Shown: positions 18,235 through 54,985 of the stretch, in pieces
How positions within the stretch are numbered: the first letter of the stretch is position 1
Layout of the letters: every line of letters starts with the position of its first letter
Origin: Nautilus pompilius
Lineage: Eukaryota; Mollusca; Cephalopoda; Nautilida; Nautilidae
DNA length: 64,000 nucleotides
Assembly: GCA_018389105.1 (NCBI GenBank)
Contig: JACATO010000121.1
Location: forward strand, 1,187,501-1,251,500
Direction of reading: 5' to 3'
Program-made: the position numbers and the translations under genes
Notes under the pieces: model-generated
Databases searched by the model: none
Seen by the model: the letters and a program-made list of their open reading frames with translations, nothing else
Told to the model about the DNA's origin: nothing

Positions 18235-18740
18235 GTAAGTTCAGGAAGCAGCTTTTGTGGTTTTCATCATCTTAGAATCTACCACATCACCTACAGTTTG
18301 ATGGGTACTGCATTCTCAATGAAGATTGCCTTGTCTGATTTCTGATGGCACTTGTTGAATTTCTGCAGCAACTTCCACAGATATAGATGGGCATTTGTGG
18401 AGTATTGGCCAGAAACCCTGTCTCTTCAAATTTATCAATGAAATTATGATACTAAGCAAAACCCTAGGCTACATGGGCTTTGATGGACATCTCTGTCATG
18501 ATGAAAGGCACATAAAGCCACCCTACATTACATTCCTTGCTACAGAAAAACTCCAAGTGCTATCTAATATTGAAGAGAAACAGTTCACAGGCATTTCTGC
18601 AGGCAAAATGACATGTCTGACAGCTCCATTTGTTTCTCTGAAGGAACAGCCAGAAGTTGTATATGGAAGCTTCATTTCCTGCTGGTGGGCAGACAATGTA
18701 AACCAAAATCTATTGGAGCCCTGACCCGTGAAAGAAACAT
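18235..18740 (-). pseudogene. Decayed helix-turn-helix transposase relic (mariner/Tc-like), copy 1
   Basis: On the minus strand this segment reads FIDKFEETGFLANTP, followed after frame slips by residues parallel to those of the better copy at 54585-54985. DNA words shared with that copy include GATTTCTGATG, TTGAATTTCTGCA(G/A)CAAC and CATGATGAAAGGCA. The '(I)xKFEETGSVADAP' phrase is known from the N-terminal DNA-binding region of mariner/IS630-type transposases in invertebrate genomes. No catalytic domain remains and several stops break the frame. The 109-codon plus-strand frame at 18395-18724 is antisense shadow. Confidence 0.5.
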
Positions 18741-20870: not shown

Positions 20871-21389
20871 ATTGCAATCCATTGAACTCTAAAACAAATA
20901 GACCATCATGATGTAGTATACTGGAGACTTAAAAAAAATTATCAAGCAATAGAAAATACATTCTTCTGTATTCTGTGACTGAGAAAAGCACTTGATTACA
21001 GATATTTAAAAAAAAAAACAACAGAAAAAAAACCAAGCATTTATTGTATGACACAGCATTATGAGTTTTCAAAAATATATGATTATTCATTTGTTTGTCA
21101 AAAAAATAGAATAATAAAATTCTGGATAAGAAACAAATGATTACACTGGTCAACAAATATTTTTCATCAAACATATGTCAAGGTGTACTTAGTGTAGTTT
21201 TTAATGCTGATTTCAAATATACAATTAGTTTTTTGACATCACGTACAGTTTTCAAGATGAGAAATTTTTTTGATTTTAGCTCATGCATTATATAGAAATT
21301 CCAATTAATGATGTGTATGCATGTATTTCATTTACATCATGGAAACATACCTTTAAAATAAACTACATTATTCATTGCTGCAAAGTTCA

Positions 21390-21510
21390 GATGCAATATT
21401 TCATCATCTTAAATTAACCAGTCAAGTTTTGTCTGATGAAATAGGTATTTCAACATCTCAAATTGTTCAGTCATAATTGGTCTGACGAAATATTTCATCG
21501 TCTCAAATTC
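21390..21510 (+). repeat. ~50-bp subterminal tandem repeat, about 2.5 units
   Basis: The phrase (A)TATTTCA(T/A)C(A/G)TCT(C/T)AAATT recurs three times, at about 21396, 21447 and 21489. The first two are followed by a CAGTCA..TT..GTCTGA(T/C)GAA block. It lies between the left TIR and the start codon of the element gene. Such subterminal repeats often bind transposase or act as promoter elements, which is an inference here. Confidence 0.65.
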
Positions 21511-21564
21511 AATATAAGTATAACCGTTTGTATCTATTTCCTTACTTGTTTTACAGTGTTAACA

Positions 21565-23227
21565 ATGTCAAGACAGTGTAGAAATCCTCCTGATGTGTTT
21601 TGTTATGTCTGTGGACAATTTATTGTGAAAGCTCAAAAACGTACAATAACACCAGAGATCAAGAAGATTTATAAGCTATACTTTGACTGTCCTCTTGGAG
21701 ATCGGGACACATTATGGGCACCACATTTTATCTGCTCAGCTTGCTCAAATGGCTTACGTGACTGGTTCAATAAGAGGAAGAAGTCCATGCCTTTTGCCAT
21801 TCCAATGATATGGAGGGAGCTGAAAGGCCATTTTAATGACTATTATTTTTGCAAAGTAAATGTCACAGGATTTTCTATGAAGAATAAACACAAAATTGTG
21901 TATCCCAATTTGGATTCTGCAATGAGACCTGTGCCTCACAATGGAAGTCTGCCAATTCCAGTTCCACCAGATGATGGTATTGAAACATCAGATGATGCTG
22001 CTGACTGTCACGATAGTGCTGCTGAGGAAGATTACGTGACTGATGACGATAGCTTTGAACCTCAGAAATTTTCCCAAGCTGAACTGAATGACCTTGTCAG
22101 AGACCTATCCCTCTCAAAAGATAAAGCAGAACTGTTGGCATCAAGACTGGAGGAGAAGTATCTGCTAGAGCACGGTGTTCGTATAACTTATTTACGGCAT
22201 AGAAATGTGGTTCTACAAACGTGTTTTTCTGTTGAAGGCCCGCTTTGCTTTTGCAGTAACATCAATGGACTTTTTGAATGTTTATCACAAAATCATGATC
22301 CTGCAGAGTGGCGTTTGTTTATTGACTCTTCAAAACGAAGTTTAAAAGCTGTACTTCTCCCTAATGGTAATTTGAAGCCCTCCATTCCTATTGTACACTC
22401 CGTTCATCTTCATGAATCATGAGAATATGGAACTTTTACTTCATGCCATTGCCTATGAAAGATACTCATGGAAAATATGTGGAGATTTAAAAGTCATTGG
22501 AATTTTAATGGGAATGCAGTCAGGTTTCACAAAATACTGTTGTTTCTTGTGTCTATGGGATAGTCGGGCAACTGACAGACATTATTCGGAATCAAACTAG
22601 CAGACAAGAACATCATACCAGCCAGAACTGTCTAGCGTCAAGAATACACCTCTTGTAGATCCATGTAATGTCCTATTGCCTCCTTTGCACATAAAGCTTG
22701 GACTGATGAAACAGTTTGTAAAGACACTAGGGAAGAGAAATGCCAGAGGGTTTGAGTATATTGTAGAAAAGTTTCCCAAAATCACACAGGCGAAGTTGAA
22801 AGAGGGTATCTTTGTCAGACCCCAAATTAGAGAAGTACTCAAAGATGTCAACTTCAAGACAACACTGGTTGAACTGGAACTGCCTGCCTGGAATGCTTTC
22901 AATTGGATCTGTGAGAATTTCATGGGCAACAAGAAGGCAATGGACCACAAGGATGGCATCAAGAATCTTCTGAAATGTTACTCCGCAATGGGTTGTCGCA
23001 TGTCACTGAAAGCTCACTTCTTGGACTCCCATCTGGATTTCTTCGCAGATAACCTTGGAGCAGTGTCTGATGAACATGGTGAAAGATTTCACCAGGACAT
23101 TAGTGCTATGGAGAAACGGTACCAAGGCTTCTGGAATGACAGTATGCTGGCTGACTACTGCTGGACACTTTACCGCGATCAACCAGATCAGGAACACCGC
23201 AGGAAATCCAAATCACAATGTTTCTAA
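21565..23227 (+). pseudogene. CxxC-rich, DDE-like putative transposase, broken by one 2-nt deletion and one stop
   Basis: The gene of the 21-kb element would be about 554 residues. I chose ATG 21565 because the conserved part starts there; the open frame upstream uses TTG and TIR sequence. In order: cysteines C13-x2-C16, H54/C57-x2-C60, then a YYFC motif near residue 96; an acidic Ser/Asp-rich linker (about 145-175); a DDE-like core with WRLFIDSS (D~254), ICGDLK (D~308), a CCFLC cluster (~326-330) and DEHGERFHQD (E~504). A homologous N-terminus lies in the 37-kb element. I know this protein family as an unnamed, multicopy type in many animal genomes; its activity is not established, and the transposase reading is inference from TIRs and D..D..E layout. 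Breaks: a 2-nt deletion near 22420 shifts the frame, and a TAG stands at about 22598-22600. The rest runs in one frame to 23227. Confidence 0.75.
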
Positions 23228-23544
23228 CTCTGTTGTTCTAACTTTGTCTGTTTTGTCTGACCCATTTTTTGTGTATTCACTCTTTGTAGAATGATAGTGA
23301 TGATTTTTAACTCAATAAACTCATTTACTTTCTAAAAATAATATGTCCTTATTTATTACGTTAATGATTTCATATATACAAATATGTAAATATTTGCATG
23401 TATCTACTGAAAAACTGATACGTGCTGCATACAAATGGAGTGAAATTTTGAAATCAGCATGAAAAATTAGTCTAAAAAAGTTGGTTTGCATTCATGATGA
23501 GTATAATACATTTAATTTTGTTGACCAGTGTAATTATTGGTGAA

Positions 23545-36856: not shown

Positions 36857-37835
36857 CACAGGCCTGCAAAATTTGGGTCATTGGAAATTGTCTGCAATGT
36901 TATAACTGATTTTTATGTTGTTTGGTGTGCTGATTTCAAATATGACCACTATTTTTCTCTATCACGTAAGGATTTTTCACAAAGTGAATCCGAAAATATG
37001 GGGAAAGAGATTATTAATAGATATTCTGGTTGAAACACTTATTTGAAAAAAAAATTTTTTAAATAGTTTTTCTGGAGGTAGAGGTACTGGTATACCTGGG
37101 CCATGAGGTACAGGGCGTACTGCCGAGAGATTTGGATAGAAAATTTCTTTCTTAGATTGAACCCCTGTACGTTACACGAACAAAAGTAACAGTCATCACT
37201 GTGATTTCAGGGTTCCCTCCAGATCATAGGGATCCCAAAACGGAAAGACTTTTTCTTACCTTGAGACCACTGCCAGAATTCTTCCACACAAACAGAACAC
37301 ACTTTATGTGGGGCCCAGGACTTATCCTGGTCACCAAGTTTCACACCAAAATACGCTTAATACACTTTCTTAACAAAGTCTGTGATGTTTCTTTGCTGTT
37401 TCTTCACTGAAAAGTTCCCACAAATGTAACACAAGTCATCAGGTGCATTAAGACAACCCCTTTGCAGCCATAAACAGAAGAAAACCACTAAGGAAAAAAG
37501 AGAAAAAAGTAAACTTCTGCAGAAATGACAGATCTGGAAAAGTGCACTGGTTATCACAGAACCTTCTCACACAAAGATCTAATTGCAACTGAGTCTGAGT
37601 AGGGAGTGTGGAGAGGGGGAAACAAAAAAAGAGTAAAGAAAAATTAATTATAATTAATTTTTTGTTTAGAAGCTTAATACAGTGATTCTGGAGATATTGA
37701 AATGGAAACTTTGAGTTTGTGGGAAAATGGTACGTGATGGAATTTTTAAACTACTTTTACTGAAAACAGCACCCAAAAATCTATAGGAATCAGCTGTTAG
37801 TTTTCGGACAACTTTTCCATTGCCGGCCCCCTGTG
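36857..37835 (-). mobile_element. Internally deleted relative of the 21-kb TIR element
   Basis: The tips are CACAGGCCTGC on the left (36857) and the complement of GCCGGCCCCCTGTG on the right (ends 37835). TIRs of about 110 bp contain GCTGATTTCAAATAT (36929-36943) and CACGTA (36963-36968), with diverged mirror copies at 37761-37770 and 37731-37736. These motifs are shared with 21144-23530. Only the N-terminal part of the gene remains (37535-37075, minus), ending directly at the left arm, so more than a kilobase of the core is gone. This is the usual route from autonomous element to MITE. The flanks (CAATTACA / TTACCTAT) show no clear duplication. Confidence 0.7.
37075..37535 (-). pseudogene. 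N-terminal fragment of the CxxC/DDE-like putative transposase
   Basis: On the minus strand it reads NAPDDLCYICGNFSVKKQQR, then after a TAA stop AYFGVKLGDQDKSWAPHKVC, then KKKSFRFGIPMIWREP, then after another stop DDCYFCSCNV. Beyond a frameshift come YPNLSAVRPVPH and PGIPVPLPPE. Each block aligns with the protein at 21565 (CYVCG, LGDRDTLWAPHFICSAC, MPFAIPMIWRE, YYFC, YPNLDSAMRPVPH, LPIPVPPD). It has two in-frame stops and at least one frameshift. It keeps the CYFC pair that the 21-kb copy has lost by a Cys-to-Tyr change. Confidence 0.75.
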
Positions 37836-39494: not shown

Positions 39495-40811
39495 CGATGT
39501 GTAGTCAAAAAGTATCCAACCTTTGGCCAAAACAACAAGTAATATTAAAAAACTCACCATTTTGATTTAGTCTCCTTCAAAGTATTTGCCTTGGGAGTCT
39601 ACACACTTCTGTCAGCATTCCTGCCACTGCTGGAAACATTTCTGGAAATCAATTTTTGGGATGCTGTAGAGCTCTGCCGTCGAATTTTGCTTAATGTCCT
39701 CTGTTGACTCAAATCTTCTCCCTTTGAGTGTTTTTTTGAGCTTTTGGGAATAGCCAAAAGTCACATGGAGCCAAGTCTGGGGAGTAGGAAGCCTGACGAA
39801 CAAGTGGTGTGTTATGCTTGGCGAGGAATGCTTGGACGTGGGCGGAATGAGTGGGTGCGTTGTCATGGTGGAGTTGCCAGTTCTTTGCTGCCCACAGGTT
39901 GGGTCGTTTTCGCCGCAACGCTTCACGAAGGTGACGAAGAACCCCCAGGTAGTATTCTTTGTTAATTGTCTGACCTTGTGGTGCATATTCATGGTGCACA
40001 ATACCTCTGTAGTAAAAAAAACAGGTCATCATCAGTTTAACATCGCTGCACACCTGTCTTGCTTTCTTTGGTCTTGGCGAGGATGGATGCTTCCATTGGG
40101 ATGATTGCAGTTTTGTTTCAAGAACATAGCCGTACACCCATGTCTCATCACCAGTGATGATAGTGTTCATGAAGTTTTGATCTTGGCTAGCACACTCCAG
40201 CATGTCCTGGGAGATTTCCTTTCTGCTGGTCAGACAACAACTTTGGTACAAATTTGGCCGACACCCTCCTCATGCACAAATCTTCTGTTATAATTGACTG
40301 AACTGACCCATGGCTGATTCCAACTTCGGTAACAATCTTCTCAATAGTCACACAACAGTCTTCATAGACTATTCCTCGAACCTTTGCAATCACTTCGTCG
40401 TTTCTGCTAGTCGATGGTCTGCCACAACGTGGCTCACTGTCCACTGAGGTGCGGCCATCTTTGAACCGGTTGTACCACTCCTTTATTTGTTTTTCCCATA
40501 TCATCATCTCCAAAGGCCTTCTGAATCTTCTCGATAGTCTGGGCTTGCGTATCACCAAGTTTTTGGCAGAATTTGATACAGTATCTTTGCTCAATGCGCT
40601 CGGTCATCTTGACTCAAAAAGAAAAATCGCACAGCACACTCTTCACGTCTGTACTCAACGCGTCACTGCTGGCGACTGGGGCAACCTACAGACACGAAAA
40701 TTTTTGTGCATGCTCAGGAAGGACACGGCCACCTAATACCCATGCAGATTTTGCTCATGCATTATTTTGTTCAAACAAATTCAAGGTCGGATACTTTTTG
40801 ACTACACCTCA
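39495..40811 (-). mobile_element. mariner-family DNA transposon (1.3 kb)
   Basis: Inverted tips share GTGTAGTCAAAAAGTATCC (about 39500-39518; complement near 40788-40806), then (A/G)ACCT. TA dinucleotides flank both ends (39493-39494 and 40812-40813), the canonical TA target duplication. Length and single-gene layout match a standard mariner. The gene on the minus strand is broken by frameshifts. Confidence 0.9.
39612..40607 (-). pseudogene. mariner transposase (DDxD type), frameshifted
   Basis: The start is the ATG at 40607-40605 (MTERIEQRYCIKFC), which opens the paired HTH N-terminus. Continuing are KEWYNRFKDGRTSVDSEPR and CGRPSTSR (the linker motif), then ISHGSVQSI and FVPKLLSDQQK. The catalytic parts are TGDETWVYGY (first D), HHDNAPTHSAH (second D) and YSPDLAPCDFWLFPK (third D). 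There are 33 residues between the last two aspartates, one fewer than the usual 34 of mariner. The frame must shift near 40500, 40215 and 39715, so the protein cannot be made. Mariner transposase cuts and pastes the element at TA. Confidence 0.9.
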
Positions 40812-47706: not shown

Positions 47707-49275
47707 CACCGGATATTTCCAAATCTCCCACAGGCAGAATTTTTTTTGCTCAAAAGTTGTTTAAGTGTCTAGAGCACAAGGAAAAAAATTTTTTTACTTA
47801 CTCTTCCAGCAAAAATTTTTTAGGTTGATTTTTGTATTTTCACTCAATCCCCTAAATTATGCAGAGATTTCTGCAGAATAATTTGTTCTAACTTTTTTTA
47901 GAAACAACACAGATCTGTCTATTTTTCCTTCCAGTTTAGGGCATTCTACGGTATGAAAATCGGTGGCAAATGTGTTGTTTAATTCAGAATAGAGTTTGCG
48001 AAAGGTGTGCGGATTTGGAGAAGTGACAACAGTGAGCCCGTCCAACTCCCAATTATGCATGGCTTTCACTGCAGCTGCAGCTTGGCACCCACTCGCATTC
48101 TGGCTTCTTCCCATTGCCAGGTAGTCATCGCATATTAAATTAGTTGAGTCCTTTGCAGGTGATGCTGTTTTTGTGTAGTAGTGTCGTTTTGCTCATGTTG
48201 GAGATGACAAACTTTGAAATTCACTACTTTGTGTCACTTTTGGGATTTCTTTACAGAGTGGACCAGCTTTTGATTTTTCACAAATTAAACAGACACCTTT
48301 TCCACACAGAGTCATCAGTGCAAGGGACCAGCGATTTTGTGTAAAGTCAAGAATCTCATGAGCAATTTTTATTTTGTTGGACTTATTACAAAACGATGGA
48401 TAAAAGTACCGGCAACAAGATAGACAAACAGATGTTGGAAACCACTTGTTTGATTTTTCGTACTCCGGAATGAATTGCTTTAGTTGCTCAGCGACTTTGG
48501 GATTATCGAGAATGTAGAGAGTTTCTCGTTTGGAAGCTGCCGCCCTCCACATAGTTCGAGGTATGTTCTTGAAGCAGATGATGCAGCGAAGCATTCAGTT
48601 GCGATTGTGACCTTCAGATTTGTGGTATTCAGTTGGGTAGGGTGAAGTTAAAGGCCCTGGATTTTTTTCGACACAACCGCACACGCAGAGATTTTGGCCA
48701 CCCCAAAATGTAAATTCACTTCAGTCATCTAAAAGCAAACAAGTACAACACAATGTCATATCATGTACAATATTACTGTTTGAAATTCTAAAACAAACAA
48801 AAAAACCCTCTCAACATCACCATTTTTATGCATATTCCGAAATCACAAGATTTAATATATGTCTAATACTTTTGTGGTGTCCAAAGAACGTAGGGGATCA
48901 CGAGAGTGGAGGTGTATGGGTTAAAATGAAAAAACTCTGGAATAAATACGAATTTTTGGGATAACCTTTGGTCTTTGCAATAATTCGACTCAAAAAACTC
49001 GTTTTTTGAACTTTTCAAATCAAGCTGATCAGCAGTTTTTTTCCCCCAGATTTTAGTCAATCGCTTTTTAAAAAAAGTTAGAACAAATTATTCCGCAGAA
49101 ATCTCTGCATAATTTAGAAGATTTGGTGAAAATACAAAAATCGACCTAAAAAATTTTTGCCGGAAGAATAAGTAAAAAATTTTTTTTCTTGTGCTCTAGA
49201 CACACTTAGACAACTTTTGAGCAAAAAAAAATTCTGCCTGTGGGACATTTTCGAAACTAATGAAAATATCCAGTG
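47707..49275 (-). mobile_element. 1.57-kb DNA transposon with ~200-bp TIRs and a CxxC ORF
   Basis: 47707-47900 and 49069-49275 are near-complete inverted repeats, including CCCACAGGCAGAATTTTTTT, GCTCAAAAGTTG, CTAGAGCACAAG and GTTCTAACTTTTTTTA, with a ~13-bp indel near the tips. The tips are CACCGGATAT and CACTGGATAT. Immediately outside are TGCACCTA (47699-47706) and TGCACCAG (49276-49283), an imperfect 8-bp target duplication with six identical bases. A zinc-binding-type ORF reads on the minus strand and ends inside the left TIR. The 8-bp duplication fits hAT/P-like families; the exact family is not established. Confidence 0.8.
47857..48594 (-). pseudogene. CxxC zinc-binding-type element protein, one in-frame stop
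   Basis: The ATG at 48594 starts MLRCIICFKNIPR. C4-x2-C7 is followed by VCLSCC (about residues 57-61) and by LCGKGVCLICEKSK, so three cysteine pairs resemble a treble-clef or zinc-ribbon module. The frame stays open for 245 codons to 47857 except for one TGA at 48193-48195. After it come AKRHYYTKTASPAKDSTNL, CQAAAAVKAMHNW and, near the end, FLKKVRTNYSAEISA, which lies inside the left TIR. No catalytic triad is visible, so the ORF could be an N-terminal half left by internal deletion or an accessory DNA-binding protein. I recognise the cysteine layout from unnamed multicopy animal genes but cannot name a function. It is not the same protein as that at 21565. Confidence 0.6.
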
Positions 49276-50153: not shown

Positions 50154-51767
50154 CAGCAGTGTGCAAAAGTCTTGCATAAAAATGACTAGACTTAGAAAAT
50201 GGGTTCTTATTTTGTAGAAATTAGTAACTATTGTATGTTTTCTGTTTTAATTGAAATGTATCGGTGTCTTTAAATGATTTATAACACTCAGATACATTTT
50301 GTAATTGCACAGTCAAAATTTAAATATTAATAAAATGATTTGCATGAAATCAGCTTGTGCAAAAGTGTTGCCTAAACTACAAAATATTAGAATATATATT
50401 TTGTGCTATAATAGTTTAGGAGAGTAGAATATATATTATGAAAAACTGTCATTTTCCACTATTCTGATTCATTTTTGTTCAATATAGTGATGCCAAGAAC
50501 CCGATATTTGACCCCCAGAACAGAGGGCCACAATCGTTCACATGAAAGAAGATGGTGAAACTGAGTGGGTCATTGCAGATCATATCGGTTGCAATCAGTT
50601 GATGATATCTTGTACCTGAAACATTGGAAAGCTGATGGAAGCCTAATTTCGAAACACAGAGCTGGCAGACCGCGGAAAACGACGGCTCGACAGGATCGTC
50701 TGATCGCCCGCATGTCGAGCTCGGACTGATTCCGCACTTCCACGACATCCAGACAGCCTTGTCAAGGCACCATGGGATCAAGTTGGCCTCATGCACCATC
50801 AGACGGCATTTGATCCACATGGGACTGTTCGGGCGATCGACACAGAAGAAGCCGTTCATCAGTCTGGACAATCGTTGAAAGCGACTGCAGTGGGCTCGCG
50901 ACGGTCCAGTGGTCCTGAATGTTGTTTTCCGACGAAAGCAAATTCGTGAGGGTCCACTTGGCGGGTCGGGTGTACATTCAGCGATCGGTGTCCAAGAAAT
51001 ACCATCCTAGTTGCACTCGACTGACTCTGCAGGCAGGGGAAGATTTGGCCATGGTTTGGGGCTGTTTTAAATCATCCAGTGTTGGTCCGTTGCATCACAT
51101 GGAGGGTCGAATGAATGCTCATGACTATGCTAAGATCGTCTCGGACATTGTCAAACCGTATATGTGTGACCACATGCCCCTGACAACCATCTATCAGCAG
51201 GACAACGCCCCCATCCACACAGCTAAGAGTGTCAAGGCCTTGATGGCAGAATTGCAAATCTCCCTCCTCAACTGCTCGACTCAAAGACTGGATTTCAATC
51301 CCATCGAAAACAATTGGCACTCAATTAAACTCAGCATTAGTGCCAAAAAAAAACGATTTGAAACAGAAAATCAAGGAAGCCTGGTCGGAGTTCAGTAGTG
51401 ACAATTGTCAGCGTTTGGTAGACAGCATGCCTCGTCATTGTGAACAAGTTATAAAGAATTTCAGATATTCTACTCATTATTGATAGATCTGATCACTTTC
51501 TGCATAATTGGAATTGAATCTGAATTGATTAGATAGCTGTCTAGATTTTATGCAACACTTTTGCTCACGTTGATTTGATGTAAATGATTTTCTAAAAATT
51601 ATAACTTTTCTTACAATGAAACAATACGCTTGATGTTATTGGAATAGATGCACAGCAGTAATATAGAAATACTTTAACGAACAAGATTTGATAACAACTG
51701 CTTTCGACAAAATACGAGCTAATTTACAGGAAAGATTATTTTTATGCAAGACTTTTGCACACCGCTG
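50154..51767 (+). mobile_element. Tc1-family transposon with IR/DR ends
   Basis: Outer inverted repeats of 30 bp with one mismatch begin CAGC(A/G)GTGTGCAAAAGTC (50154 onward; complement ends 51767). TA flanks both (50152-50153 and 51768-51769). A second, inner pair carries TGTGCAAAAGTGTTGCCTAA (50356-50375) and the mirrored TTATGCAACACTTTTGCTCA (51547-51566). Outer and inner repeats share the core GTGCAAAAGT.TTGC, so each arm has two direct repeats about 200 bp apart. This is the IR/DR architecture known from Sleeping Beauty-type Tc1 elements. Confidence 0.9.
50490..51483 (+). pseudogene. Tc1-type DD34E transposase, broken
   Basis: It starts MPRTRYLTP at 50490. After an early frame slip comes RATIVHMKEDGETEWVIADH then IGCNQ (first HTH), with HRAGRPRKTTARQDRLIAR in another frame (the GRPR linker). 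The catalytic part from about 50915 reads FSDESKFVRVHLAG (first D), YQQDNAPIHTAK (second D) and DFNPIENNWHSIK (E). Exactly 34 residues lie between the second D and the E. The C-terminus SMPRHCEQVIKNFRYSTHY ends with TGA at 51481-51483. At least four stops or frameshifts fall in the N-terminal half and one near 51360 (an A-run), while the 159-codon catalytic frame is intact. Confidence 0.9.
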
Positions 51768-54584: not shown

Positions 54585-54985
54585 TCATACCTTGTATAAA
54601 AAACCACTGTAGTCTTGTACATCACCTTCCATGGTTTGCTGAGTTAGGCCTGGAAACTTGATAAAGCATTCTTCATGGGCATTAGCTTGGCTGATTTCTG
54701 ATGATGCATGTTGAATTTCTGCAACAACATCCTCAGATGTAGGTGAGCAATCTGATTCTGGTGCATCAGCCACAGATCCTGTCTCCTCAAATTTATGGAT
54801 AAGATTATGCAAGGCTCTTGGGTTACATGGGTTAATATCTTTGTCATGATGAAAGGCATGTCAAACTGCCCTTACATTATATTCATTGCAATATAAAATC
54901 TCCATAATCATTATGCAATCTTGGAGAGAAACTGTTCATAAGCATTTGCAAACCAATAACTCTGGTTAGCTTTATTTACAGAGGA
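54585..54985 (-). pseudogene. Helix-turn-helix transposase relic (mariner/Tc-like), copy 2
   Basis: On the minus strand one frame stays open from about 54862 to 54585. It reads FHHDKDINPCNPRALHNLI, then HKFEETGSVADAPES, then TSEDVVAEIQHASSEISQAN and KFPGLTQQT. The 'NP.N.R.L..LI.KFEETGSVADAPRSGRP' layout is a known N-terminal DNA-binding region of mariner/IS630-like transposases; here the GRP linker is lost. No DDE core follows. It is the sister of 18235-18740 and much better preserved. Confidence 0.6.

Follow-up and report, generated by a model that had tools for sequence, protein, structure and literature searches.

What kind of element occupies positions 21144 to 23530 of the window (the whole 64-kb stretch of DNA analysed here), where a single gene lies between inverted tips? 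The first-pass annotation had proposed a DDE-type transposase between its own terminal inverted repeats (TIRs), of an unnamed type. From its combined features, set against the published description of the group rather than placed in a tree, we conclude that the feature is very probably a decayed member of the Chapaev3 group (CMC/CMCT clade), one copy of an autonomous DNA transposon that moves by cut-and-paste. The view that the type was unnamed did not hold up, as the termini, target-site duplication (TSD), size and motif order match this published group. The element type has already been described, the families found here are members of a known animal group, and known categories are unchanged by the element; what is gained is a name and a likely mechanism for a protein previously known as an unnamed, many-copy animal protein.

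The element, read on the forward strand, measures 2,387 bp from tip to tip and was delimited by its exact inverted tips and by comparison with its family. The 14-nt tip CACTGGTCAACAAA occurs exactly at 21144-21157 (+) and at 23517-23530 (-), on either side of one gene as the annotation had stated, and these two element ends are the only exact matches in the 64-kb window; the chance expectation for this tip in the window is 0.92 matches even at 2 mismatches. The inverted repeat extends inward past the 14 nt, imperfectly (local alignment of one end against the other scored 88, whereas the best of 200 shuffles scored 52), with the 5' TIR at 21144-21250 (+) and the 3' TIR at 23419-23530 (-), the inner limit of each being approximate. 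The left target-site bases are TTA (21141-21143), with an A directly before them, and the right target-site bases are TAA (23531-23533), with a T directly after them; the middle base on the right is unlike that on the left, and the window copy has no exact 3-bp duplication.

The transposase gene of this copy is broken in the way that the annotation had described, by a frame shift and one stop. Its first open part (21565-22419, +; 285 codons from the ATG at 21565) encodes the N-terminal cysteine-rich region, an acidic linker and the predicted first catalytic D, and ends with a TGA (22420-22422, +) at the point where the reading frame shifts. The second part (22421-23227, +) contains an in-frame TAG at 22598-22600 and runs to a final TAA at 23225-23227, giving a read-through product of 553 residues. 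Three cysteine-pair regions had also been reported; the third is damaged in the window copy, which has YYFC where most relatives have CYFC. We conclude that the window copy has lost the ability to make its protein. Copies with open frames, both from the same family and from a younger subfamily, are located elsewhere in the genome.

We used alignment A1 (15 rows from 14 copies, including the broken relatives L072 and L073, which are aligned in part) to predict the catalytic residues, numbered here as in the open copy L009. The predicted first catalytic D lies in FIDSS (22324-22326, +; D254), the predicted second D in CGDLK (22484-22486, +; D308) and the predicted E in HGERF (23081-23083, +; E507). 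The second D and the E are separated by 199 residues, and between them lie a C(2)C motif located 19 and 22 residues past the second D (22541-22552, +; C327 and C330) and an H(4)H motif, HFLDSH, whose second H is 17 residues before the E (23015-23032, +; H485 and H490). By our own reading, the sequence PPLHIK (22685-22690, +; L375-H376) would be the LH motif named in PMC4079192.

Residues D254, D308, C327, C330, H376, H490 and E507 are invariant in all 12 full-length rows of A1, in agreement with the earlier proposal that FIDSS, CGDLK and HGERF carry the D, D and E, with a CxxC after the second D. The N-terminal residues C13, C16, H54, C57 and C60 are conserved in the same 12 rows, and H485 is identical in 10 of them (one R, one gap). 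Intact relatives that are 48-51% identical (L069, L070 and L071) retain the D, D, C(2)C, LH, H(4)H and E, and among decayed relatives the second D is N in L072 and E504, the acid neighbouring E507, is K in L073. Between subfamilies dN was 0.35-0.51 while dS was saturated and could not be computed, and from this we conclude that the protein has been under constraint.

Searches of Pfam, PDB chains, PHROGs and NCBIfam returned no significant match for the transposase. At E<=1, no Pfam DDE family was matched by any of the 15 aligned proteins, and there were no Pfam matches to hAT or P domains. An AlphaFold2 prediction from the 15 rows of A1 gave a poor model (mean pLDDT 48.1, pTM 0.34). This low-confidence model has a strand that ends at residue 307, just before D308, helices over residues 375-476 and a helix at 503-520 that carries E507, while D254 has no predicted strand; taken at face value, the order of elements would fit an RNase-H core that carries a helical insertion, except for the strand at D254. 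Searches outside the host covered viral contigs, GTDB genomes, phages and plasmids, non-animal collections that are silent on animals, and found no relatives there.

The host genome searched (2,558 contigs) totals 727.6 Mb. It contains exact matches to CACTGGTCAACAAA 1,209 times (603 forward, 606 reverse), compared with 10 occurrences (6 and 4) of a reversed-pattern control. Beyond the 14 nt of the tip, L001-L004 run on into another sequence (TTTTTATTTTT..CTTTGGCAGACC) that matches the 5' end of the subfamily represented by L069, and because these loci carry the same tip with another inner sequence, the tip count mixes families. Among eight loci fetched by the tip alone, a facing partner tip was found within reach in L005 only; this copy is a deletion derivative of 1,348 bp with inexact flanks (TTA/GTA).

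A protein search of the same genome returned at least 82 matching rows (78 scored among 8,159 candidates). The best 30 rows, loci L009-L038, show 91-96% identity at the protein level, and their matched stretch is free of stops in 12 loci and contains stops in the other 18, so that the suggested search of the host genome for the same tips and intact frames yielded both. Eight of these 12 stop-free sister copies have open frames of 551-554 residues that begin at the same ATG; across the intact copies listed, open frames are 545-574 aa. Both tips are present, with at most 3 mismatches in 14, in all 30 fetched gene copies (the first tip bases are mutated in L009 and L010). These data support the annotation's view that the transposase lies between TIRs of its own. 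Gene copies lacking TIRs, which it had named as evidence to the contrary, did not occur among the 30 fetched. Over 31 copies (the 30 loci plus the window), tip-to-tip length is 2,294-2,416 bp, the mean pairwise distance is 2.9% and copies lie about 1.5% from the majority base (window copy, 1.5%), so that the set looks like one burst.

To assess target-site duplication across copies, as had been proposed, we compared the flanks of these same 31 copies. An identical 3-bp TSD was found in 23 of the 31 (22 with TTA or TAA, one with TCA), and none of 20,000 flank permutations reached 23 (mean 12.3). This count covers the 30 fetched loci and the window, with the remaining 52 of the 82 rows, most older copies among them, outside it; it scores the tip-mutated L009 as a miss and counts as two the single insertion site of L036 and L037, which gives 22 of 30 if merged. 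The base before the TSD is A and the base after it is T in 27 of the 31 copies, and the wider target site is palindrome-like (TRA-TWA-TYA). An exact TSD is absent from eight copies, the window copy among them, and in this respect the duplication holds for the family but not for the copy that raised the question. In the window copy and L030, TTA lies to the left and TAA to the right, whereas in L038 the two triplets are swapped; in these three of the 31 copies the mismatch is confined to the middle TSD base, with unchanged bases on either side. Such a mismatch could stem from mutation, from exchange between copies or from a TA stagger of 2 bp.

At the family level, the elements have CAC..GTG ends, a TWA TSD between A and T, and the size and motif order of Chapaev3. 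According to PMC4079192, Chapaev elements generally have TSDs of 3-4 bp and ends that are invariably 5'-CAC/GTG-3', and Chapaev3 has a TWA TSD, insertion always between A and T, and C(2)C-LH-H(4)H motifs. The silkworm example described there measures 2,289 bp and encodes a 556-aa transposase in two exons, and most other Chapaev3 elements appear, by the same account, to be single-exon. The elements studied here share with Chapaev3 the CAC/GTG ends, the TWA TSD between A and T, a length of ~2.3 kb, a transposase of ~555 aa, the DDE residues, C(2)C, LH and H(4)H, the mostly single-exon structure and the occurrence of deletion derivatives. Of the Chapaev3 families named in the same paper (Merrow, Garfield and Conan), which we compared by description only, Merrow and Garfield have two exons whereas the window gene has one. 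Chapaev3 transposons are credited to Kapitonov and Jurka 2008 in PMC4411706, which also places them with Transib and RAG1, and PMC3630058 records Chapaev3 in a fly.

We considered whether the window family could instead be a separate CMCT lineage, sister to Chapaev3, EnSpm, Mirage or Lanisha, with CAC ends, short TSDs and C(2)C/H(4)H held in common. Kojima 2025 (PMC12730594) describes CMCT lineages as sharing C(2)C and H(3-4)H, ends that are mostly CA..TG, and TSDs of 2-5 bp, and our comparison with Chapaev3 was made by description, not sequence; both points leave this alternative some ground. However, PMC4079192 ascribes to Chapaev3 the whole set of a TWA TSD flanked by A and T, an LH motif and a size of ~2.3 kb with ~555 aa, and we regard a separate lineage as very unlikely. 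EnSpm/CACTA elements share the CAC ends, C(2)C and H(3-4)H, with a 3-bp TSD in fungal families (PMC12730594), but their transposase domain Transposase_21 (PF02992) was matched by none of the 15 window-family proteins at E<=1. A search of the host genome with PF02992 carries no information, being empty along with its 14 controls. The 2-bp TSDs of animal CACTA relatives are described in PMC1636069.

The Chapaev3 assignment sets the element within a transposase assemblage that includes RAG1, an immune recombinase and distant relative. In Chapaev, Transib and RAG1, too, the stretch from the second D to the E contains C(2)C and H(3-4)H (PMC12730594). CAC ends are common to all three, and Chapaev and RAG1 also have a cysteine-rich N-terminus. 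In RAG1 the spacing D708-C727-C730 puts the two cysteines at +19 and +22 from the second D, which equals the spacing in the window family. No PDB chain, those of RAG1 included, matched the window-family profile at E<=10.

PIF/Harbinger and CACTA had been our first ideas, from the TWA duplication and the CACT tip respectively, and both were dropped on a check of motifs and literature. A PIF/Harbinger-type element would account for the duplication, since Harbinger 3-bp TSDs are TWA. A 3-bp TSD as such is given as canonical for Harbinger in PMC12730594. Against this reading, the Pfam searches of the 15 proteins yielded no DDE family, the ends are CAC, and the 199 residues between the second D and the E hold C(2)C and H(4)H. 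The Harbinger core (Pfam DDE_Tnp_4) is compact and has no such C(2)C/H(4)H insertion, and we give the PIF/Harbinger reading next to no weight.

It is just as improbable that the gene is a host gene, a domesticated transposase that is not part of a mobile element. The dN values point to constraint, as such a gene would require, but transposases of active lineages show the same. Furthermore, every one of the fetched copies lies between TIRs, TSDs flank 23 of the 31, the sites differ except for L036/L037, copies stand about 1.5% from their majority sequence, and 18 of 30 carry stops in the matched stretch. Transib, hAT, P and Kolobok were ruled against by the 3-bp TSD (it is 5 bp in Transib, 8 bp in hAT, 8 bp in P and TTAA in Kolobok, and 4 bp in Chapaev proper), and hAT and P also by the absent Pfam matches.

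For a Chapaev3 transposon of this kind, we envisage a mechanism in which the cysteine-rich N-terminus would help to bind the TIRs and the D, D and E would coordinate two metal ions within an RNase-H-like core. A zinc, coordinated by C(2)C and H(4)H, may fasten the helical insertion to this core, an arrangement found in RAG1 and Transib. Excision would take place at the CAC ends, followed by joining to a pair of target phosphates separated by 3 bp; the TWA duplication would then arise when the staggered joints are repaired.

The N-terminal region of the window gene contains a zinc-finger-like C-x2-C ... H-x2-C-x2-C arrangement (21598-21744, +) and is a candidate Chapa domain, the complex N-terminal zinc finger that occurs in Chapaev3 too according to PMC4411706. 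None of the libraries searched returned a match to a Chapa domain. Sub-threshold matches to zf-AD were obtained for 4 of the 15 transposases at E<=1 (best E 0.053), unrelated families reached similar E-values (Barstar 0.066, PIP49_C 0.044), and neither L070 nor the read-through protein matched zf-AD. Homology between the Chapa domain of Chapaev3 transposases and the ZAD (zf-AD) of animal zinc-finger transcription factors would mean that one arose from the other, for instance by capture of a transposase domain. Its sole signs are these zf-AD matches and that of the ORF at 48196-48594 of the window (E 0.021). We consider this homology improbable, because unrelated families score alike and because L070 and the read-through protein are without a zf-AD match.

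This single genome harbours several Chapaev3 subfamilies, and the open copies of one subfamily are nearly identical to each other. We took six stretches with further relatives (L069-L074); L069, L070, L071, L072 and L073 share 45-51% identity with the window family. In L069, L070, L071, L073 and L074, TTA or TAA flanks CAC..GTG ends on both sides, and in L072 the 3' end alone was found; the subfamily ends are CACAGGGG/CACTGGGG. L070 is 99.7% identical to L071 over 2,315 bp, at a different site, and 99.5% identical to L074 over 2,318 bp, and every copy has a TTA or TAA of its own at each end. As copies at different sites are 99.5-99.7% identical, we conclude that the L070/L071/L074 subfamily moved recently, and it is younger than the window family. 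Together with the mean distance of 2.9% between sister copies of the window element, this is in line with the recent activity that the annotation had suggested. A further 30 loci of another subfamily (L039-L068) entered the protein comparison only.

The window also contains a second, internally deleted Chapaev3-type copy, which belongs to another subfamily (36857-37835, -). Its tips are CACAGGGGGCC (5') and CACAGGCCTGC, with TAA on the 5' side and, on the 3' side, a TG duplication followed by TAA. It retains an N-terminal gene remnant (37135-37467, -) that is 50% identical to the window-element protein and has two stops. With this remnant as query, at least 150 relatives were scored among 2,282 candidates, and their identities span 49-98%.

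Other repeats and open reading frames (ORFs) were observed in the window. Another TIR element lies at 47740-49230, with arms of 124 nt that are 92% complementary and tips TCCCACAGGCAGAA; its ORF (48196-48594, -) encodes cysteine pairs and has a sub-threshold zf-AD match (E 0.021), and the element is possibly another Chapa-domain transposon. At 50315-51608, inverted arms of 62 nt (79%) surround an ORF that we take to resemble a Tc1-type transposase (DNAPIHTAKS). Overlapping ORFs at 39615-40603 (-), with HHDNAPTHSA and YSPDLAPCDFWLFP, presumably resemble a broken mariner-type transposase. Lastly, an 84-nt direct repeat occurs at 18310-18393 and 54666-54749 (79% identical, 36 kb apart), and its second unit lies inside an open frame at 54588-54860 (-).
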